64,000 nt of DNA from Isosphaeraceae bacterium (GTDB lineage Bacteria > Planctomycetota > Planctomycetia > Isosphaerales > Isosphaeraceae), in contig JAJPJC010000050.1 in assembly GCA_021324445.1 (NCBI GenBank), forward strand, positions 1 through 64,000. Direction: 5' to 3'. Below are positions 1,602-34,426 of this stretch, piece after piece. Numbering within the stretch: the stretch's first letter is position 1; each line of letters opens with the position of its first letter. The translations under genes and the position numbers were made by a program. Below the pieces are notes generated by a model. It was given only the letters and a program-made list of their open reading frames with translations, did not search any database and was not told where the DNA came from.

Positions 1602-4600
1602 CTATTGGACAATCATCTCCCCGTTCATGACCATCCAGTGGCCGGGGAACGTGCAGAGATAAGGATACCGTCCCGGCGTCGCGGGGGCGCGGAACGAGAT
1701 CGCGAACTGATCCTGCGGGCCGACGATGTCGGTGTAGAGGAGCACGTCGTCGGTGCGGGGGATGTAGTGGCGGGTAGCGGCGTCGGGCTCGGCGATGATC
1801 TTGTTCACGAGGTCGCCGACGCGCGACAGGGTCCCGGGCTTGATCAGCGCCCAGTTGTGCGGCACGACGTCCGGGTTGAGGAACGTCAGCTTGAGCGGCT
1901 CGCCGGCGCGGACGGTGAACGATCGGACCGTGAAGCTCAGGTTCTTGCCGGCCTCGATGGTGATGGCCCGGGCGCCGCGGAGGTCGCGACGCCAGGGGTT
2001 CGGCGCCGGCTTGTGCGCCAGCGCGGCCAGGTCGGCGAGGATCGGGTGGGCGGCGATCGTCTTGGAGGCCGGTCGATAGCCCGGGAATCCCGTGAACGGC
2101 GCCGCCAGCCGATGCACCGTGGCGAACAGGTCCTGCGGAGGGCCCTCGTCCGGGCGCAGGTGCAGGTGGAGCTGGTTGACCGGCTGGAGGTCGGGGATCT
2201 CGAGGAACAGCGTGCGGCCGTCGGCCAGGACATGGGCCGAGCGGATCGCCAGCGGATCATGACCGGGCTGTCCCGGGTGGCGCGGGGCGAACTCGGGCGA
2301 GCCGTAGCCCGGGCTGTATCGGTAGTTCCAGGCCTGGGCGAAGTGATGGTCCGGCCGCTCGGCAAGACCGCGGTCCAGCGGCTGGACGAACGTCACCAGT
2401 ACTCCGTTCTCATGCGCGTGGAATTCCCGGGGCAGTTGGACGGGATCCCCCGTGTAGCGCACGCGCTGGAAGCAACCATCCGCTGAAGTATACGTGCCCC
2501 ACCCGGCCATCCCCGAGACGTAGAGCCGTCCGTCTCGGGGATTGAAGCGGCCTCGGTGCACTCCGGAGAGGAACTCGCCGGGCATTGGCACGACCGCTCC
2601 CTGGGGCTGCTCGCCCACCTTCTCGCGCAGCAGGAGGAAATACGTCCCGGCGCCGAAGGAGAGGTGCAGCATCTGGCCCCGGAGCGGGCCGAACCGGTCG
2701 TCCGGGACCGTGACCTGGGCACTGCTGGAGTTGTCCAGCCCGCGCGGGAGGTAGACCAACGGCAGGTCGGGAGGCTGTGCGGCCCGCGGTCCGAGAGAGC
2801 CGTAGTGACCGCCCGGCCGCACTTCACAGACCATCGACGCGGGAGTCCACTCCCCTTCGGACGCCGGGACGGTGAGCGTGCCGTCGGGGGCCAGCCCCAG
2901 GCCATCCGGGTTGCGGAAGCCGGTCGCCACGACCTCGACCTGACGGCCGTCGGCTGCGATCCGCAGCAGGCCCTGCTTGCCCGAGGCCGTGTAGAATCGC
3001 CCGGACGCGTCGCGCTGGAGTCCGCTGATGAAGTCATGGCCGGCGGGTGAAGTCAAGAAGCCGTTGCAGAAACACTCGTGGAAGTCGGCCTCGCCGTCGC
3101 CGTTCAGGTCGTGGAGCCGTGTGACCTGGTCGCGGCCAAGGACATAGACTTTCCCCTCGGCGACGACCAGCCCCAGCGCCTGGTGCAGCCCTGATGCGTA
3201 CCGCCGCCAGCGGACCTGTTGCAGTGTCTCATCCAGCCCGTCGACGCGCCAGACATCGCCCTGGATCGTGCAGAGCATCGCCGTGCCGTCAGGGAAGAAG
3301 TCGTGGTCGCCGAAGAAGAGCAGGGCCCTCCACGGGTTCTCAAACGGCGGCTGGATGGTGTCGATGGCATAGGGTCCCTGGCGGCCGAGCGTCCCTCGGG
3401 TCGTGAGCACCTGGGGCCATCGCCGCGGCCCGCCACCGCGCGTCAGGTGGGCGAGCGGATGGGTGTCCGCCGGCGCGACGAGCCGGGTGAACCGACCGCC
3501 TTCGGCCCAGGGTGCGTCGAGCAGTTCGACCTCGCCGATGCGGTAGGCGAAGATGATCCGGTTGCCGTGCCGGTAGAAGCCGTGGTAGACGAAGGGTTGC
3601 TCCGGCCGCCGTCCTTCGGGGCGGGGCAGGGGAGTGCCATCGAGAATCACGCCGTCGAGCAACCCGTGGCGCGTGGCTGAGAAGCGGAGGAAGCCGCCGC
3701 TCCAGACCGCCTCGTAACACAGTGTCTCGGGGTTGAAGCAGGCCGCCAGCTCGCCCCGATCTCCCAGCCGGACGCAGACGCCCTTGGGGACCGTCACGCC
3801 CGCGCCGTGGAAGACACCGCAAAGGACGTTCCCGAGATCGGTCCGGTTCCAGCGGTCGTCGGACCAGGTCGCTTCGTTCTGATTTCCCCAATGGCCTTGC
3901 TTCCCGCCGTCGAGACCAGGGAACGCCGGCAGGAGCGCGGGCATGGCCGGCTGTTTCCTGAAGAACTCGGCCTCCTTCGCGTAGAAGTCGTAGACGCGAT
4001 CCCGGTTGACGGCGAGCCGCCAGTTCGGCCAATGTTCCGGATGCAGTGGGGCCCGGTCGTACGAGAATGCGGCCGGCACCTGGGAATGACCGCGCACGTG
4101 ATCAGCCGATGACAGCCCCGGTCGCCCGAGCTCGAGCAAGAAACGGATCAGGTCGCGGCGCTGCGTGGGACTCATCGCCGCGGCCAGCCCGTCGGGCATC
4201 AGGGTGCCCTCAGAGCGGTTCTCCACGATCTCCGTCTTCAGGATGCGGATCGTTTGGCCGGTAGCTGGGTCGCGGAGCAACCGCTCCAGGCCGGTCTCGC
4301 CCTGGTCGTACCCCTGGTGGACCGTGCCGTCGGCCGTGGCCACGGTGATCGCCGCATACCCCGGCTTGACCTGCCGCCGGGGCCAGAGGACCGATTCCAC
4401 GATCTCTTCGGGCTTGAGGCAGACCCCGACGGTCGTCAGGTCGGGACCGACCGACCCGCCCTGGTCGCCGATGCGGTGGCAGGAGAGGCAGGCGAACTTT
4501 GGTGAGGCGAAGACGGCAGCCCCGCGCTGAGGATCACCCTCCCTGCGCGCGCTGCCGAGCAACTCGACGACCAGCGCGGGATCGAACGGCGCAGTCGAGC

Positions 4601-5627
4601 TGGAAGGACCGGCAGGAACAGGAGGCACGGGCGTCCGCGGCCTGGGCCGCGGGCCGGGGGGCTTGCCGTCGAGCTGCGGCACCAGCCAGTCCAGGCCATC
4701 GAGATTGTCGCGCAGCCGAGCCTCGGCATCGTCCACCGTATGGCCCAGGATGCCGATCGGGCCGCGATAGCCGCTGTCCCGGATGATCCGCAGCAGCTTC
4801 AGGTCCAGCGCGCCCTGGCCCAGCGGCAGGATCTTCCTCCCGATCCGGTCGCCGGCCGGATCCATGCCGTTGAGGTTCAGCGCCACGAGATAGGGCTTCA
4901 TCTTGGCGAGCCGCGCGGCGAAGCCGTCGAGATGGTCGTGGCCGTGGTGAAGGTTGTAGACCATCCCGACGTTCGTCACGCCCCGCCGCTTCAATTGTTC
5001 GATGATTGCGATCTGGTTCTCCGGCTCGCCGAACCAGCCCCCGTGGTTGTACAGGGCCAGCGAGCAGCCGATCGTCGCGGCCGCCTCGGCCAGCGGGCGG
5101 AGCTTGGCCGCGGCCCGCTCGACCCGTCGCTGTTGCTCCTCCCCGCCCACGCGATCGGACCCCAGGTCGAGGAGCACCCAGAGCTGGGCCTTGACCCCGT
5201 GGCGCTTGAGCGTCTCGAGGATGAGGCGCGACTCGCGGTTCAGCTCGCCCGGCGCGACCCAGAAGGCATCCAGCGCGATGCCGTGCCGCTTCAGGGCCTC
5301 GAGCTCGGCGTCGAAGGTGGGGATGTGCTCGGCGCGCCAGTCGTAGGCAAAGTGGCGGAATCCCAGGCGCTGGAGCATCGTCGCGCGCTCTTCCGGCCCT
5401 CGTTTCTTGCTGTCAAAAGGGACAATGCACCAGGCTACCAGATTGTCGCGGGCGAAGAGCCGATCCGGCCCGGCCGGCGCGCCCGTCGTGCGGGGCGGTG
5501 GGTCCGCGTCCCGTCCCGGAGGCGCGGCATCGGCGCCGGCCAGGAGCGCGCCGCACAGGTACACGATGCCGAGCCTGCCAGCAGGAGCAATCAAATTGAG
5601 AATGCTTTGGATGTAAGAATCCATCAT
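1602..5627 (-). CDS. Giant secreted fusion: TIM barrel, cytochrome c, beta-propeller, cupredoxin
   Basis: A 1341-residue protein with four recognisable parts. After a signal-like segment (about 15-35) comes a xylose-isomerase-type sugar epimerase TIM barrel (about 57-330). Next is a cytochrome c domain with one haem site, CLSCH (about 350-505). A middle region around KQGHWGNQNEATWSDDRWNR resembles, from memory, DUF6797 and leads into a sorbosone-dehydrogenase-like six-bladed propeller (about 760-1090). The C-terminus is a type-1 copper cupredoxin, with ligands in VPHNW and YLCTFPGHWMVMNG (His, Cys, His, Met). It probably acts in the periplasm on sugars or polyols and passes electrons to haem or copper. 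GGAAG precedes the start. The substrate is unknown. Confidence 0.8.
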   Translation of the reverse strand: MMDSYIQSILNLIAPAGRLGIVYLCGALLAGADAAPPGRDADPPPRTTGAPAGPDRLFARDNLVAWCIVPFDSKKRGPEERATMLQRLGFRHFAYDWRAEHIPTFDAELEALKRHGIALDAFWVAPGELNRESRLILETLKRHGVKAQLWVLLDLGSDRVGGEEQQRRVERAAAKLRPLAEAAATIGCSLALYNHGGWFGEPENQIAIIEQLKRRGVTNVGMVYNLHHGHDHLDGFAARLAKMKPYLVALNLNGMDPAGDRIGRKILPLGQGALDLKLLRIIRDSGYRGPIGILGHTVDDAEARLRDNLDGLDWLVPQLDGKPPGPRPRPRTPVPPVPAGPSSSTAPFDPALVVELLGSARREGDPQRGAAVFASPKFACLSCHRIGDQGGSVGPDLTTVGVCLKPEEIVESVLWPRRQVKPGYAAITVATADGTVHQGYDQGETGLERLLRDPATGQTIRILKTEIVENRSEGTLMPDGLAAAMSPTQRRDLIRFLLELGRPGLSSADHVRGHSQVPAAFSYDRAPLHPEHWPNWRLAVNRDRVYDFYAKEAEFFRKQPAMPALLPAFPGLDGGKQGHWGNQNEATWSDDRWNRTDLGNVLCGVFHGAGVTVPKGVCVRLGDRGELAACFNPETLCYEAVWSGGFLRFSATRHGLLDGVILDGTPLPRPEGRRPEQPFVYHGFYRHGNRIIFAYRIGEVELLDAPWAEGGRFTRLVAPADTHPLAHLTRGGGPRRWPQVLTTRGTLGRQGPYAIDTIQPPFENPWRALLFFGDHDFFPDGTAMLCTIQGDVWRVDGLDETLQQVRWRRYASGLHQALGLVVAEGKVYVLGRDQVTRLHDLNGDGEADFHECFCNGFLTSPAGHDFISGLQRDASGRFYTASGKQGLLRIAADGRQVEVVATGFRNPDGLGLAPDGTLTVPASEGEWTPASMVCEVRPGGHYGSLGPRAAQPPDLPLVYLPRGLDNSSSAQVTVPDDRFGPLRGQMLHLSFGAGTYFLLLREKVGEQPQGAVVPMPGEFLSGVHRGRFNPRDGRLYVSGMAGWGTYTSADGCFQRVRYTGDPVQLPREFHAHENGVLVTFVQPLDRGLAERPDHHFAQAWNYRYSPGYGSPEFAPRHPGQPGHDPLAIRSAHVLADGRTLFLEIPDLQPVNQLHLHLRPDEGPPQDLFATVHRLAAPFTGFPGYRPASKTIAAHPILADLAALAHKPAPNPWRRDLRGARAITIEAGKNLSFTVRSFTVRAGEPLKLTFLNPDVVPHNWALIKPGTLSRVGDLVNKIIAEPDAATRHYIPRTDDVLLYTDIVGPQDQFAISFRAPATPGRYPYLCTFPGHWMVMNGEMIVQ

Positions 5628-5814
5628 GGATCATACTTCCGAGAATATCAGTAAATGGACTCGATCCGACCGGCTTGACAGTCGCGGCAACGAGCTCTAC
5701 ATTCGGACCTTTACGAGCGTAGGGCCTGCTGGGCCCCCCGTCAACCACCCGCGACGGGATGTGCGGATCGAGGCGCCATCCCGATCCTCACCTCAATTCG
5801 ATGAGGCTCCCGCC

Positions 5815-7116
5815 ATGAAGACCGCCCCAGGGGTGACGCTGATCGCCAACGGCCAGCTTGTGGACGGGACGGGGAGACCGGCCGTCGCCGATGCGGCGGT
5901 GGTGATCCGGGAGGGCACGATCGCCTACGCCGGGCCGGCCCGCGGTGCGCCTGAGGTCCCGCCGGAGGTGCGTCGCCTCGACGCCCGGGGCGGGACCATC
6001 TTGCCGGGCCTGGTCGAGGCGCACTTCCACCCGACGTATTTCGACGTCGCCGAGCTGGCCGACCTGGACATCAAGTATCCGGTCGAGTATGTCACCATCC
6101 TGGCGGCGTGCAACGCCCGGCTGGCGCTGGAATGCGGCTACACGGCGGCGCGCAGCGGCGGCAGCCTGCATAACATCGACGTCTGGCTCAAGAAGGCGAT
6201 CGAGGAGGACCTGATCCCCGGCCCGCGGCTGGCGGCCAGCGGCCGCGAGATCTGCGGCGCCGGCGGCCTGATGGACTGGAACCCCGACCATCTCAAGCTC
6301 GGCATGGAGGGCCTGATCCTGCTGATCAACGGGCCCGACGAGGCGCGCAAGGCGGTGCGGAAGCTGGTCAAGGACGGCGTGGAGTGGATCAAGACCTATC
6401 CGACCGGCGATGCCGCCGCACCCGACACGGCCGACCATCACACCCTCTGCATGACCTTCGAGGAAATGGCCGCCGTGGTCTCCGAGGCGCACAACTACCG
6501 CCGCAAGGTGACCGGCCATTGCCGCGCGACCCAGGGGATCAAGAACGCGCTTCGCGCCGGCTTCGACTGCCTGGAGCACGGCACCTTCATGGACGGGGAA
6601 GCGCTCGACCTGCTGCTGGAGCGGAATACGCCCGTCGTGCCGGCGCTGCAATTCGAGCGGGCGAGTATCGAGAAGGGTCCGGCATTCGGGATGCCGCAGG
6701 CCGTGGTGGACGGGCACAAGGAGACGCTCGAGGGGGGCGCCGAGAGTGCCCGGATGATCCTCAAGGCCGGCGGCCGGCTCGGCATGGGCGGCGATTACGG
6801 CTTCGCCTGGAATCCGCATGGCGACTACGCGAAGGAGCTGACCTTCTTCGTCCGCGACGTCGGGTTCTCGCCGCTGGAAACGATCACCTGCGCGACGAAG
6901 ACCGGCGGCGAGATCATGGGCCGCGGCCACGAAATCGGCACCGTCGAGCCGGGCAAGCTGGCCGACCTGCTGGTCGTCGACGGCGATGTCCTCGCCGAGA
7001 TCGCCCTGCTGGAGGACCGCGCGCGGTTCCTCGCGGTGATCCAGGGGGGCGCGATCAAGGCCGGCCAGCTCGCGGCCGGATCGCGATCGACCGCACGTCC
7101 GGAGGCCGGGCGTTAA
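5815..7116 (+). CDS. Metal-dependent amidohydrolase (imidazolonepropionase/prolidase-like)
   Basis: A 433-residue member of the amidohydrolase superfamily. Metal-site features visible in order: the HxH motif in LVEAHFHPT, a lysine likely to be carboxylated in [13 protein letters not shown], histidines in KVTGHCRAT and CLEHGTFMD, and the late aspartate in [10 protein letters not shown]. The C-terminus [17 protein letters not shown] is the usual closing beta-sandwich. The start at 5815 (MKTAPGV) is chosen because the composite-domain strand begins there and GAGG lies upstream; an open frame extends back to 5626 but looks untranslated. It is divergent from the giant fusion. The substrate is not predictable; cyclic amides or Xaa-Pro dipeptides are typical. 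Confidence 0.85.
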
Positions 7117-7168
7117 GACCGCCTGGGCTCCGCGGAGCGGGGAAGTCGACTTGGGGGAGGAGTCGGTT

Positions 7169-8068
7169 ATGCACCGGCAGACCGGGTCCGCGGGCTTCAC
7201 GGCGATCGAGCTCCTGGTGGTCGTGGCGATTATCGGTATCCTGGTGGCGCTTGTGCTGCCGGCTGTGCAGATGGCGCGCGAGGCGGCCCGGCGCACCTGG
7301 TGCGCCGGCAACCTGCATCAGCTCGGGGTCGCCCTCAACAACCACGCCACCCGTGCGCAAGCCTTGCCCCGCCGGCTCTCCGGCCTCTTGAGGGAGATCG
7401 AGCAAACCGCGCTGGCCGGGCTTTCGCTCGACACGACGACGGCGACACCCGCCGGACAGACCGCGCGGTCGACCACGATCGCTGTCTTCTTGTGCCCTTC
7501 GGATCAGGCACTCCCGGGGCTGGAGGGGGGTACCAATTACGCCGGCAACGCCGGTGTCGGGTTCACCCCGTCCGGACGAGTGAGGAACGGGGCGTTCGGC
7601 GCCGCGATTCGCGATTTCGCCGACGGCCTGAGCAACACGGCCGCCATCTCGGAGTGGCTCCGCGGCAACGGTAATCCCCAGGTTCGAGACCCCAAGCGGG
7701 CTGTCTTCGCGACCCCCGACCGCTTGATTGGTCAGGCGGACCTCGGGCCATTCAGCTCAGAGTGTCATGGCCTGGACCCCCTGCTCGCACAGCTCGAAAG
7801 CCTGGGCAAGGGTCTGGACTGGACGCGCGACGGGTTCGGCTACTCGCTGTACAACCACGTACTTGGAATCAACGATCACACCTGTACCAATGCCGGGCTC
7901 GTTCAGCAGGGCGCCTGGACCGCAGGGAGCGCACACTCCTCGGGGGCCAATACCCTCTTCGCCGACGGGCACGTGGCCTTCGTGAAAGACTCCATCTCCC
8001 TGCAAACCTGGCGGGCCCTGGGCACTCGAAACGGGGGAGAACCGATCTCGGAGGGCACGCCTTGGTGA
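7169..8068 (+). CDS. DUF1559 prepilin-like protein
   Basis: A 299-residue protein starting at ATG 7169, preceded by a strong GGGGGAGGAG ribosome site. The N-terminus [20 protein letters not shown] is a type IV prepilin-style cleavage site (G-F-T-x-I-E) and transmembrane helix. The DUF1559 body ends in the family's signature tail, [16 protein letters not shown] (H-x9-DG type), then [14 protein letters not shown]. These proteins are massively expanded in planctomycetes and are presumed to be surface or pseudopilus components. This copy is shorter than the second DUF1559 protein at 20069, mainly in the middle region. The exact role is unknown. Confidence 0.9.
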
Positions 8069-28559: not shown

Positions 28560-29843
28560 TCATCCCATCACGGTCGGCAGGACGTAGGGTCCCTTGGGGA
28601 TGACGGCGACCTGGGCGCCGGGTCCATAGTCGGCGATCGACTCGGCCAGCGCCGACTCCACGCTCGAGGCCGGCTCGACGAAGCACGCGGAGAGGACATC
28701 CGCAGGCAGCCCGTCCGAGACGAGCTTGACTCGCGCCTTGCGCCGAACCTTGGCCAGCTCCTCGACCTGCCACTGGTCCATCACGAAGTAATCCTTCCCC
28801 AGGATCCGCTCCATGAACACTTCGAGCGAGGGATGGTCCCGCAGCGCCGACTGGAACTCGGGACTGCCCAATCCCTCCGTCAGGCTGGCGGCCAGGATGA
28901 TCGTCCCACCCTGCTTGACGATCGGCAGGCAGCCGGTCAGTCCCTTCACCGCCTGGTAGAACGTGGTGTCCAGGGGATATCCCGCCGAGCTGGTCACCAC
29001 GATCTCGACCGGCCGCCGGACCGCCGCGCGGCAGATCCCATCCATGAAGCGGACCCCCTCCAGGAAGGCCAGCTCCATGTCGCCGGCCACGACCGAGGTG
29101 ACCTGCCGGCGGCTGTCGAGCGTGACGTTGACGATGAAGTCGCAGCCGGCCATGCGGGCGATCTGGGTGTTCTCCTCGTGGACCGGGTTGCCTTCGAGAA
29201 TCCCACAGTCGGCGTTGGGGTGCTCCAGCAGTTCGGGCCCGTGCCAGCGCCGGACCGTTTCCAGCGCGGCGACCCCCGGGCAGATCAGCTTGCGGCCTCC
29301 GGAATAGCCGGCCATCAGGTGGGGCTCGATCAACCCGGTGGCGATCTTCAGGTCGGCCCGGACGTACCGGCTGTCGATCCAGCCCGGGATGCCGCGCGCC
29401 GTGGTCCCGACCAGCGTGTGCTCCTGCAAGCGGGTGCCATGGTGGTCCTCGACGCGATAGCCGGCGACGATCTCCGCGCCGAGCATCTCCTCCTTCTCGG
29501 CGGGCGTGCTGGGCCGGTGCAGCCCGGTGGCGATCAGGAGCAAGGTTCGCTCCCGGGGGACGCCCGCCTCGTGCAGGACCTTCAACAGGGGCCGGAGGAT
29601 CGTCCGATTGGGGACCGGCCGCGTGATATCGCAGATCAAGATGCAGGCGTCGCTCCGCCCCTGGGCGATCTGCCGCAGCGCGGGCGCGCCGATGGGCGAC
29701 TCGATCGCGGCCGCAACGGCCTGCTCGGGGTGCTCCAGCGCCGGCACGTCGCGGATCGCCAGCGGACCCACCACCCGATCCGCCGGCAGCTCCACGGTCA
29801 AGCCGGTCCGGCCGTAATCCAGCGTCACTGTCAAGGTCTTCAT
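28560..29843 (-). CDS. larA: LarA-family nickel-pincer racemase/epimerase
   Basis: A 427-residue LarA (DUF2088) protein. Lactate racemase LarA uses a nickel-pincer nucleotide; its key residues in Lactobacillus are H108, H174, K184 and H200. Here H109 (ATGLHRP), H175 ([12 protein letters not shown]), K185 (GGRKLICPG) and H201 ([11 protein letters not shown]) sit exactly one position later, so the active site is intact. Many LarA homologues act on other 2-hydroxy acids, so the substrate is open. The start overlaps the stop of the upstream DUF1080 gene by four bases (ATGA). LarB, LarC and LarE, needed for cofactor synthesis, are not in the window. Confidence 0.88.
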
Positions 29844-30721
29844 CGCGCGGTTGATCCTCTCGTGGTTTCCTGCAAAGGTCGGATCAGAAGGTTCCGGTAG
29901 GCCACCGGTCCATGGTCGCCCTGGAGGAGGATAGGGCCGGGGCGGTCGGGGCCATCGAGCCCGGAGCGCGTGCCCCCCTCGCCGAAGTAACCGAGGTAGC
30001 GGCCGTTCTCCTCCCGCAGTTTGACGCGCAAGGCTGCCGGCTTGTGCGCATTTTCATGGTTGAGCCGTTCGAACGCCTCGCGGTCGGTCTCGCCATGGCG
30101 GATGTCGTAATCCTGGTACACGGGCTTGCCATTCCAGACCAGGGTCAGCTTCTTCCCCTGGAACGTGATGTCGAACGACTGCCAATGCCCCGGCGGCTTG
30201 GCGAGGTTCTCGCGGGGGAAGGCCCGCTCGTAGAGGGCGCCACAGTCATGAACGCCGAGCTTCGGCTTGCCGTAACTGTCGAAGACCTGGATTTCGAACA
30301 GCCCGCGGTTGTAGACTCCGGAGTTGCTCCCCTTGGGGACGTTGAACTCGAGGTGGAGCTGGTAGTCGGAGAAGGTCTCGGTCGTCAGGAGGTCGGAGCC
30401 GCGTCCATCCTCGCCGCAGAGCAGGACGGCGCCCGGCGACCCACCCTGACCAATCGGCAGCAGCCGAGCAGGGTCCGCCGGGTCGAGCCGGACCTGGTCG
30501 CAAACCACCCAGACCTTCTTGGCGCGGGGATTGCGGTACGTCCAGCCGGACAAGTCCTTGCCGTTGAACAACGGCTTCCAGCCGTCTTCGGGCCGGAACC
30601 GTCCTGCGGACGCGTTCTCTTGCAGCGGTTCCCTCCCCGCCGCGGGCATGCTCACCAGCACCGTCCAGGCCAGAGTCACGATGATCAGGACGTGGATCGA
30701 AGGTCGAGCCGGAATCCTCAT
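29840..30721 (-). CDS. DUF1080 (3-keto-disaccharide hydrolase-like) secreted protein
   Basis: A 293-residue exported protein: signal peptide at about 5-28 ([20 protein letters not shown]), then the DUF1080 jelly-roll, recognised by [35 protein letters not shown] and [14 protein letters not shown]. The family is a concanavalin-like fold; some members hydrolyse 3-keto-glycosides. Start 30721 is preferred (GGAGCG upstream). The frame remains open further out but the signal peptide would then be internal. Its last four bases overlap the larA start, so the two are coupled, suggesting a shared sugar or hydroxy-acid pathway. Confidence 0.85.
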
Positions 30722-30934
30722 GGAAGGAACGCTCCAGGATGGCGCAGGGAATGCAGGCGAATCCGGGGAAGGGAATGGACCGCGCACAATCTCCCCGTTG
30801 TTTCAGAGTAGCAACTTCGCGTCGCATTGTCCCGAGGGTCCCGGTGACGAAGTCGGCCGGATCGTCGGCGGCTCCCAGCGTCGGAGGCCCCGAATGACCA
30901 AGGTTTGCGACCGGACCACCCAGGAGAGACGACC

Positions 30935-31225
30935 ATGACCAGCCCGAGTCCGAATCGCCGTGGATTCCTCCAGGCCACCGCCGCCGGGTTCGCGGCGGCC
31001 TCGATTCCCGAGTCGGCCGAGGCCCAGCGGCTCGGCCGCCAGCCGATCAACGCCGGCGGCATCCCGCTGCGCCCGCTGGGCAAGACCGGCCAGATGGTCA
31101 GCCTGCTCTGCCTCGGCGGCCACGCCAGCACCAACCCCCAGAAACTTTCCGAGAAGCAGAGCCTCCGGCTCATCCAGCGGGCCGTCGATGAGGGGATCAC
31201 CTTCCTGGACAACTGCTGGGACTAC
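30935..31225 (+). CDS. Tat-exported aldo/keto reductase, exon 1
   Basis: The first 97 codons of an aldo/keto reductase. A twin-arginine signal (NRRGFLQATAAGFAAAS) comes first, then the barrel start IPLRPLGKTGQMVSLLCLGG and the catalytic segment TFLDNCWDY, giving D92 and Y97 of the tetrad. The gene is cut right after the Tyr codon by a group II intron beginning GTGCG at 31226; without splicing the frame ends six codons later. Joined to exon 2 (33680-34426) it encodes a complete 345-residue enzyme. AGGAGA lies 8 bases before ATG 30935. It is probably a secreted or periplasmic NAD(P)H-dependent oxidoreductase. Confidence 0.85.
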
Positions 31226-31763
31226 GTGCGCCGCTTTGCGGCTTGAGTTGATCCCCGAGCAACTCGGGAAGGGTTGAGCGTGATACCCTTGGGCCACCGG
31301 ACCTACCTGAAGGCGAAAGCTAGAGGGGAAAGCAGCATGTTCGGAAAGGCTGGATACAGCGAAACCACCAAGCTGTATGCCGGTCGAGGCCCGGACGGTA
31401 TGGTGAATGCTACACTGCATGAACCCAAGTATCCACACTCGAAACAGCAGGGCTTGGACACGGTGGTTGACGTCCAAGAGCTTCCGAGACATCCAGCAGA
31501 GGATGAAGGCTGGCAAGGGGATGGCTTGGTAGTCGCCATTCCTAACACGCTCCGAGGAAGCTGGGTTGCAACAGGCAACCTCAAGGATACGAAATGGGCA
31601 CCTACAGCCGTCCTGAACGTCACTCAAGCACGAAATGCGGGATCGCCTACGGGGCGAGAGCCCTATGGCGACGGAGCCTCCGTAGTAGTCGGAGCCAGGG
31701 AAAGCCTGGTACATGGCGAAGGGAGGCAGGTGAGTCGGGTGGGAGCCTGTGGAGGTACGTGTG

Positions 31764-33641
31764 ATGCGTAACGCCGACACGGTGCTGACCATCCATCAGG
31801 ATCGAGGGTCCAGGGGTCTCCCCCTGGAGCGTGTCTACAAGCATCTGTTCGACCCGGAGTTCTTCCTTCGTGCCTACGGTAAGATTTACCGGAATGCCGG
31901 AGCGATGACGAAGGGGTCCACCTCCGAAACGGTGGATAGTATGAGCCTCCAGAAGATCCACGACATCATCGCCCTGCTCCGACAGGAACGGTATGTCTGG
32001 ACGCCGGTTCGCCGGACGGAAATTCCGAAAGCGAACGGGAAGATGCGACCGCTCGGAATTCCTACATGGAGCGACAAGCTCGTGCAGGAAGCCTTGCGGA
32101 CGCTCCTGGAACCCTACTACGAACAGCGGTTCAGCGACCACTCGCACGGCTTTCGACCAAACAGAGGACCACACACGGCCCTCCAGGAGGTCCGCAAGAC
32201 GTGGAAGGGGACGGCCTGGTTCATCGAAGGTGATATCAAAGGATGCTTCGACAATATCGACCATTCGGTCTTATTGGAGATTATCCAGCGAGACATCCAC
32301 GATGGCCGGCTCATTCGGCTGATCGACGGCCTGCTCAAGGCTGGGTACATGGAGGACTGGAAGCGGCGAGATACCTTCAGCGGAACTCCGCAGGGTGGTA
32401 TCATCAGCCCACTCCTGTCCAATATCTACCTGAACGACCTTGATCGGTTTGTCGAGGACACGCTCATCCCGGCGTATACGAAAGGGGCGTCACGACGGAC
32501 CAATCCGGCATACAATCGGATCAACAACGAGTTGCAACGGGCACGCAAGGCGAACGATGTCGAAGCCATCGGACGACTGAAGCGAGCCATGTACAACACG
32601 ATGTCCATGGACTCGATGGACCCGGATTACCGCCGCTTACGCTACGTTCGATACGCCGACGACTTTCTCTTGGGATTCGCTGGTCCAAAGAAGGAGGCTG
32701 AGGCCATTCGAGATCGACTCTCGGAGTTCTTGAACGAAAAGCTCAAGCTCCAGTTGTCGATCGAAAAGACCCTCATCACCCATGCGGTCGATGAGAAGGC
32801 CAAGTTCCTGGGCTACGAGATCACAGTGTCGAGGGCGAACACCCTCATCACCAAAGACGGGAGACGACGGTCAAACGGGTGCATCGCACTTCTGATGCCC
32901 CGACCGACCATCGCTAAAGTCCTCGGTCGTTACAGCAGTGGAGGCCAGATTCTCCATCGCCCGGAACTGGAACCAGATGATGATTACACGATCATCATGC
33001 GATACCAATCTGTGCTCCAGGGAATCTACAACTACCACTGCATGGCAACCAACGTTGCCAGACGTATGGCCCACATCAAGCACATCCTGGAAATCTCTCT
33101 GACTAAGACGCTTGCTCACAAGCATCGCATCAGCGTCACGGAGGTCTACAGGAAATACAGGTTTATCGATCGAGTCGATAACCGTATGTCGCTTAGGGTC
33201 ATCGTGCAACGACCGAACAAAGATCCGCTCCTGGCGATCTTTGGAGGATTCCCGCTTGAGAGAAAGCCGGACGGGTTGGGAGGCAAGGATTTCGACTTCG
33301 ACGCATCATGGTTCCAAGCAGGCAACAACCGCTCTGAGATCGTCCAAAGGATGCTAGCTGAAAAATGCGAGCTATGCGGTGCCGAAGGCCCTGTCCAGAT
33401 GCACCATGTTCGCAAGCTAGCTGATCTGGATCGAGCAGGACGGGCTACGAAAGCTACTTGGGCAAAGATCATGATCGCTCGAAAGCGAAAGTCCCTGGCG
33501 GTCTGTACGGATTGTCACAAAGACATCCATGCCGGTCGCTACGATAGACCATCACCTGCGAAGCTCACTGGAGAGCCGGGTGCGGTGAAAGTCGCAAGCC
33601 CGGTTCGGGGAGGGGCGATTGGAAAAGGAGCCGTAAGATGA
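31764..33641 (+). CDS. ltrA: Group II intron reverse transcriptase/maturase with HNH domain
   Basis: A 625-residue intron-encoded protein. Reverse transcriptase blocks are clear: NGKMRPLGIPTWSDKLVQEA, FIEGDIKGCFDNIDH, GTPQGGIISPLLSN and the catalytic YADD (297-300, RYVRYADDFLLGF). The maturase/X region follows, and the C-terminus has an HNH endonuclease (CELCGAEGPVQMHHVRKLAD, then CTDCHKDIHAG). It aids splicing and drives retrohoming. GGAGG lies upstream of ATG 31764. Unusually, the frame does not stop before domain V: codons run through it (TGEPGAVKVASPVRGGAI) and end inside domain VI at 33641. Confidence 0.93.
   Translation: MRNADTVLTIHQDRGSRGLPLERVYKHLFDPEFFLRAYGKIYRNAGAMTKGSTSETVDSMSLQKIHDIIALLRQERYVWTPVRRTEIPKANGKMRPLGIPTWSDKLVQEALRTLLEPYYEQRFSDHSHGFRPNRGPHTALQEVRKTWKGTAWFIEGDIKGCFDNIDHSVLLEIIQRDIHDGRLIRLIDGLLKAGYMEDWKRRDTFSGTPQGGIISPLLSNIYLNDLDRFVEDTLIPAYTKGASRRTNPAYNRINNELQRARKANDVEAIGRLKRAMYNTMSMDSMDPDYRRLRYVRYADDFLLGFAGPKKEAEAIRDRLSEFLNEKLKLQLSIEKTLITHAVDEKAKFLGYEITVSRANTLITKDGRRRSNGCIALLMPRPTIAKVLGRYSSGGQILHRPELEPDDDYTIIMRYQSVLQGIYNYHCMATNVARRMAHIKHILEISLTKTLAHKHRISVTEVYRKYRFIDRVDNRMSLRVIVQRPNKDPLLAIFGGFPLERKPDGLGGKDFDFDASWFQAGNNRSEIVQRMLAEKCELCGAEGPVQMHHVRKLADLDRAGRATKATWAKIMIARKRKSLAVCTDCHKDIHAGRYDRPSPAKLTGEPGAVKVASPVRGGAIGKGAVR
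33573..33606 (+). ncRNA. Group II intron domain V
   Basis: A 34-base hairpin with the conserved GAAA tetraloop (GCGGTGAAAGTCGC) and flanking GAGCCGGG/CCCGGTTC stem. It is the catalytic core of the intron ribozyme, and both stem halves are intact. Confidence 0.9.
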
Positions 33642-33679
33642 CAACCATCTACGGCCACCTCGCTGGTCGCCTACTCTAC

Positions 33680-34426
33680 CACAACGGCCTCGCCGAGGAG
33701 CGGATGGGGAAAGCCCTGGCCGAGGGCGGACGCCGCGACAAGGTCTTCCTCATGACCAAGGTCTGCGGCCGGACCGCCAAGGAGGCCCAGACCGACCTCG
33801 AGGACAGCCTCCGCAGGCTCAAGACCGATCGCATCGATCTGTGGCAATTTCACGAAATCGTTTACGATAATGACCCCGACTGGATCTTCGCCCCGGACGG
33901 AGCCTTCCAGACTGGGCTGAAGGCGCTGAGGGAGGGGAAGGTCCGCTACCTGGGCTTCACCGGGCACAAGGATCCGATCATCCATCTGAAGATGCTGAGC
34001 ATGCCCTACGAGTGGGCCAGCGTGCAGATGCCGCTCAACGTGATGGACGTCCACTACCGGAGCTTCCAGCGGAACGTCCTGCCGGTCTTGCTCCAGCGCA
34101 ACATCGGCGTCCTGGCGATGAAGAGCCTGGGGGGCACCGGCGTGATCGTGAAGGAGGCGGGAATCCCCGTCGCGGATGCGCTGCGCTACGTGCTCTCCTT
34201 GCCGATCTCGACCCTGGTCTCGGGCATCGATTCGGAGACGGTGCTCGAGCAGAACCTGAAGATCGTGCGCGAGTTCCGGCCGATGACTCCCCCGGAGCGG
34301 GCCGCCCTGGAGGGCCGGACGCTGGCGATGGCCGGCGATGGCCGGTACGAGCTGTTCAAGTCGTCGAAGCTGTTCGACGGCCCGGTCCATCGCCGGCAGC
34401 ACGGGTTCTCGACTCAAGTGGGGTGA
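33680..34426 (+). CDS. Aldo/keto reductase, exon 2
   Basis: The remaining 248 codons of the split reductase, resuming at CACAACGGC (His-Asn-Gly) after the intron. Counting from the spliced start, K124 (VFLMTKVCG) and H155 (DLWQFHE) complete the catalytic tetrad with D92 and Y97 of exon 1. The rest is normal: GKVRYLGFTGHKDP, VMDVHYRSF, NIGVLAMKSLGG and GIDSETVLEQNL. An ATG at 33638 opens the same frame but its first 14 codons are intron sequence. Because all catalytic residues and the frame are preserved across the junction, the gene should work if the intron splices. Confidence 0.87.
   Translation, partial: HNGLAEERMGKALAEGGRRDKVFLMTKVCGRTAKEAQTDLEDSLRRLKTDRIDLWQFHEIVYDNDPDWIFAPDGAFQTGLKALREGKVRYLGFTGHKDPIIHLKMLSMPYEWASVQMPLNVMDVHYRSFQRNVLPVLLQRNIGVLAMKSLGGTGVIVKEAGIPVADALRYVLSLPISTLVSGIDSETVLEQNLKIVREFRPMTPPERAALEGRTLAMAGDGRYELFKSSKLFDGPVHRRQHGFSTQVG

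Follow-up and report, generated by a model that had tools for sequence, protein, structure and literature searches.

The window, by which we mean the whole 64,000-nucleotide stretch analysed, carries on its forward strand an aldo/keto reductase (AKR) gene whose two exons flank a group II intron. Exon 1 (positions 30935 to 31225) comprises 97 codons, including a Tat-type signal (NRRGFLQ) and Asp92. It ends in GACTAC (Asp96-Tyr97), with the insertion in phase 0 following the codon for the catalytic Tyr97. Exon 2 (33680 to 34426, stop codon at 34424-34426) begins in frame with CACAACGGC (HNG) and contributes Lys124 and His155. The intervening 2454 nucleotides (31226 to 33679; GTGCGCC...CTACTCTAC) were assigned to a IIA-like, ML-type intron from the sequence ends, an Rfam match, similarity to LtrA and the guide sequences. 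Genes for a LarA-like lactate racemase and a 3-keto-disaccharide hydrolase (28560 to 30787) adjoin the AKR gene on the opposite strand. The genome (G000) is a MAG-like assembly of 10.8 Mb in 567 contigs, with contamination of 8.5%.

The intron RNA and its encoded protein

The intron begins with GTGCG and ends with CTAC, as in the group II pattern of 5' GUGYG and 3' AY. An Rfam scan of the window returned one group II match (RF00029, 33571 to 33679, full model, 64.6 bits against a gathering score of 40, E 2e-10), the end of which coincides with the predicted 3' splice site. Domain V (33573 to 33606) is defined by this match and by its fold. Domain VI (33609 to 33677) folds with a z of -4.0 and a single bulged A at 33673, the branch point, seven bases from the 3' end. 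At gathering score, no Rfam regulatory family was found in the window; domains V and VI were the only elements detected.

The exon-binding guides were located using an alignment of 36 related introns with known 5' exons, each of which was scanned for complementarity to its own exon. In one column, taken as EBS1, half of the introns (18 of 36) pair perfectly with their own positions -6 to -2, compared with at most four in any other column. A second column pairs with IBS2 in 12 of the 36 aligned introns, and an adjacent column does so in seven more. In the window intron, EBS1 (GTAGTC, 31529 to 31534) pairs at six of six bases with IBS1 (GACTAC, 31220 to 31225, the Asp96-Tyr97 codons), with a G facing both third codon positions, and EBS2 (CAGCA, 31445 to 31449) pairs at five of five with IBS2 (TGCTG, 31214 to 31218). 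The guides were placed independently by family-wide covariation and complement the exon exactly (11 of 11 bases), which excludes a chance match. A putative delta dinucleotide (TG, 31527 to 31528) pairs with exon 2 positions +1 and +2 (CA), as is also seen in most of the related introns. The motif GTAGTAGTC near 31685 was considered as EBS1 and rejected, as it is conserved in introns with different exons.

The intron encodes a protein of 625 amino acids from an ATG (31764 to 33641), in a frame that is open from a GTG at 31749, with a reverse transcriptase domain (YADD), maturase domain X and an AI2M-like HNH domain (RVT_1, Intron_maturas2 and HNH in the profile search). It scores 285 bits against TIGR04416, slightly below that model's cut-off of 300. 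Among proteins of solved structure, LtrA is the nearest, with 375 bits along the full length (the next solved reverse transcriptase scores 159). The intron is complete, probably still mobile, and looks IIA-like, its protein being of the ML type and similar to LtrA. Judging from sequence, everything required for splicing and mobility looks intact, including the ribozyme ends, branch point, guides and maturase. An ATG that overlaps the stop codon of the intron-encoded protein (ATGA) opens a frame (33638 to 33679) running through domain VI into exon 2 (MTTIYGHLAGRLLY, then HNG). Unspliced RNA could thereby yield a truncated AKR of 262 residues; the overlap is probably due to chance.

The host gene and the need for splicing

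The joined exons encode an AKR of 345 residues with a twin-arginine signal, which matches Aldo_ket_red (PF00248) with 109.6 bits over profile positions 2-195; taken separately, exon 2 scores 77.7 bits and exon 1 has no match. Asp92, Tyr97, Lys124 and His155 align to the tetrad columns of solved AKRs, and the junction (DNCWDY/HNG, the slash marking the insertion) is free of gaps in alignments with 21-29 uninterrupted orthologues. A sequence-only reading of this DNA had placed a group II intron exactly after the catalytic tyrosine of a Tat-type AKR, and the boundaries, the RF00029 match, the domain VI fold and the tetrad alignment all agree with it. Its details were correct throughout (exon 1 ending in DNCWDY, the GTGCGCC start, domains V and VI, the bulged A, resumption at HNG, Lys124 and His155). 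The interval it gave, 31220 to 33688, covers the intron but takes in a few exon bases.

The AKR gene is uninterrupted in the 26 other genomes of a first set. In a draw of 298 genomes of the class, 93 have an AKR match (E 1e-70 or better), and the break at residue 97 occurs in G000 alone. The nearest genus (g17) has uninterrupted copies that are 79-83% identical. Within G000, a search for a second close AKR copy found none, the next best being 40%. The earlier reading had proposed this comparison, naming a shared insertion with decay of exon 2 as evidence against itself; the relatives share no insertion and exon 2 shows no decay. The empty target is identical at all 14 bases in three orthologues, and others have GAT or TAT in place of GAC or TAC, or Ala in place of Cys94. 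EBS1 pairs at six of six positions, by Watson-Crick or G-U pairs, with the AKR site in each of the 21 orthologues tested, because its target encodes the invariant Asp-Tyr and the G facing two third codon positions accepts C or U there. EBS2 discriminates TGC from GCC among the orthologue sites. The presence of empty, fully matched targets in relatives makes homing directly testable.

At the 108 positions that are invariant in all other copies, the AKR exons have no change of their own, and neither stops nor frameshifts were found in them. Their dN/dS values (0.07-0.24) are like those between uninterrupted genes and indicate purifying selection. Without splicing, the reading frame of exon 1 meets a stop seven codons into the intron. 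As the intron interrupts the gene in phase 0 at the active site, the full enzyme can be obtained only from spliced RNA, in line with the earlier statement that enzyme activity depends on splicing. Splicing is needed, and it probably takes place. A very recent insertion would likewise leave the exons undamaged, so that their integrity is no proof of splicing; the data fit a young insertion that is tolerated because the intron splices. The locus would then clearly exemplify an enzyme, encoded on a bacterial chromosome, whose active site is put together by RNA splicing.

Related introns in this and other genomes

At least four further related introns are present in G000, at least three of which lie within two other protein-coding genes. 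One Rad52-like gene (L009, C85:80000-95000) holds two of them, which split it after TVMNR and in GFADA and leave an exon of 177 bases between them. These are different introns, whose proteins are about 49-55% identical to that of the window intron. They lie at approximately 86825-89242 and 84225-86650 of C85, on the minus strand, giving a bacterial gene with three exons. Another intron splits a CAP-domain gene at W/LNSTR. Also present is an ORF-less member of the window intron's family (L011, 4965-5640, on G000:C133), of about 680 bases and with domain V. We considered whether the four introns are recent local copies and rejected this, as their proteins show 49-55% likeness to that of the window intron and they do not form one clade.

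In the relative G025, an AAA+ gene is split just past Walker A (GTGKSAFAR/S) and a paralogue is split by another intron right after Walker B (VFVDE/); these introns lie at about 4958-7413 of L066 and from about 5244 of L070. The two Rad52-gene introns, the CAP intron and the AAA+ introns are in frame. Across 80 loci with related proteins from many phyla, host genes were read by in-silico splicing. Helicase genes are split at DEVHE/ (L107), near GTIFNG (L152, and L110 as judged by its 3' exon) and at Walker A (L125). The DUF1016 nuclease genes of an acidobacterium and a cyanobacterium (L108, L124) are interrupted at one and the same position, group II reverse transcriptase genes after YADD/ (L149, L167, L169, L171), and a large SNF2-type gene at L109, L112 and other loci. 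About 20 relatives are nested in another group II intron, where they occupy the terminal loop of its domain V; L119, L126, L127, L134, L151, L154, L157, L160 and L178 are among these. In Streptomyces (L164, L165, about 3500-7900), two related introns occur in tandem or nested within a few kb.

Of the loci whose joined frames stay open for 100 codons or more to both sides, 13 are in the sense orientation and two are antisense, a bias towards sense. Introns of one clade of the intron tree share their targets, as do those in domain V, those at YADD, L106-L132 and L110-L152. The tree contains relatives only and is a quick version with SH-aLRT support only, in which deep forks are weak. The second Rad52 intron of G000 and the AAA+ intron of G025 form a sister pair, which points to movement between unrelated genes. 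Insertion of group II introns into host genes is generally rare (PMC4424553, PMC6003770), as the earlier reading had stated, but in this lineage many introns lie in coding motifs. ML and CL introns have been noted in housekeeping genes (reviewed in PMC4424553). Among the papers returned by our literature search, none described host genes of planctomycetes interrupted by group II introns.

Origin of the insertion and choice of target

We consider it highly likely that a complete, probably mobile intron entered an intact AKR gene by guided reverse splicing, a process for which a regulatory role is unneeded. The intron would have reverse spliced into the sense strand of the chromosomal gene, with EBS2, EBS1 and delta guiding insertion against the N-C-W-D-Y/H codons. 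The intron may have found this site because an invariant active-site motif is encoded there. Such sites would persist where codons cannot drift, and the G residues of EBS1 at third positions would tolerate synonymous change. The intron's own maturase would assist constitutive splicing, so that AKR is presumably still made. The amount is probably reduced, since LtrB-type introns, once spliced, re-target their own mRNA and lower the host mRNA (PMC6003770).

The same lowering of host mRNA (PMC6003770) would suit an intron that splices too poorly, leaving the AKR effectively knocked out with decay not yet visible. The insertion is confined to G000 and may be young, and undamaged exons give no date. 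We regard such inactivation as unlikely, given that the ends of the ribozyme, its branch point, the guides and the maturase are all intact and that the exons have no unusual substitutions, stops or frameshifts. Less probable still is a regulatory switch, in which the intron would have been co-opted to control the exported AKR through regulated splicing; the sequence-only reading had named on/off control as a possibility. All enzyme activity does hinge on splicing, the insertion is at the catalytic tyrosine and unspliced RNA stops early, but no sensor or regulatory element was found in the Rfam scan, and the intron supplies a maturase of its own, is missing in every relative that has the AKR gene and matches its site perfectly, as in homing. 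Introns in equivalent positions interrupt unrelated genes and also other introns, where a switch is implausible. The MAG-like assembly and its contamination could suggest an intron from another strain or a chimeric contig. This is scarcely credible for one intron flanked in frame by both exons, with guides that match the exon exactly, contrary to what is expected of a chimera, and with other introns of the same genome behaving alike.

The window intron can be compared with known systems. Ll.LtrB, the IIA intron of the Lactococcus lactis ltrB relaxase gene with the ML-type protein LtrA, resembles the window intron in its GUGCG start, apparent delta beside EBS1, full-length RT-X-HNH protein, protein encoded in domain IV, and sense insertion in a protein-coding host. 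Unlike this conjugative relaxase host, the host here is a chromosomal exported oxidoreductase; the proteins are distant and the guides are different. The introns of a heat-shock operon and of Geobacillus recA (cited in PMC4424553) likewise interrupt a host gene that needs splicing, but the gene here is a different one, with insertion at the codon of a catalytic residue. Twintrons (PMC4424553, PMC4649490) are matched by the approximately 20 nested relatives, whereas the window intron is not nested but interrupts a host gene. Inteins and group I introns occupy conserved sites (PMC2814812), much as the window intron lies in a conserved active-site motif, but the mechanism here would be RNA-guided reverse splicing rather than an endonuclease alone.

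Whether group II introns exploit conserved motifs as inteins do is a question that the survey allows to be tested. The window intron is of a known kind, and the lineage-level homing pattern is the part that seems worth pursuing. Bacterial ML-type introns as a lineage may home to the codons of conserved catalytic motifs (the AKR Asp-Tyr, Walker A, Walker B, DExH, YADD, and domain V of other introns), with guides that tolerate synonymous drift via third-position G-U pairs. We put this forward tentatively and think it rather less probable than its converse. If true, group II introns would have an intein-like life strategy that they were said to lack: Swithers et al., working on other group II introns, found no preference for conserved sites (p 0.49; PMC2814812).

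At nine sites with alignments, we ranked the guide-read residues by conservation among all the windows of the respective protein. Homologues of four host genes were sought in viral contigs and almost none were found, so that no conservation percentile is given for the helicase, DUF932-like and TnpB sites. Insertion into conserved motifs of mobile-element genes may already have been described by Waldern in 2020 (hiding and hijacking, doi 10.1093/molbev/msaa055).

The guide-read stretches rank at percentiles of 0.015 (YADD), 0.08 (AKR), 0.14 and 0.18 (Rad52), 0.15 (DUF1016) and 0.25 (SNF2), with Walker A at 0.37, Walker B at 0.42 and CAP at 0.47; neither the CAP site nor the AAA+ sites stand out in conservation. 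The combined preference gives a Fisher p of 0.019 over the nine sites, a set assembled after the fact. With five residues on each side, the AKR junction ranks 120 of 296 and is not unusually conserved; the 0.08 percentile applies to the guide-read stretch only, and the claim of conservation thus depends on the window of residues chosen. The preference for conserved sites is a moderate, window-dependent tendency, and the logic of homing to motif codons seems to be partly valid for the lineage as a whole.
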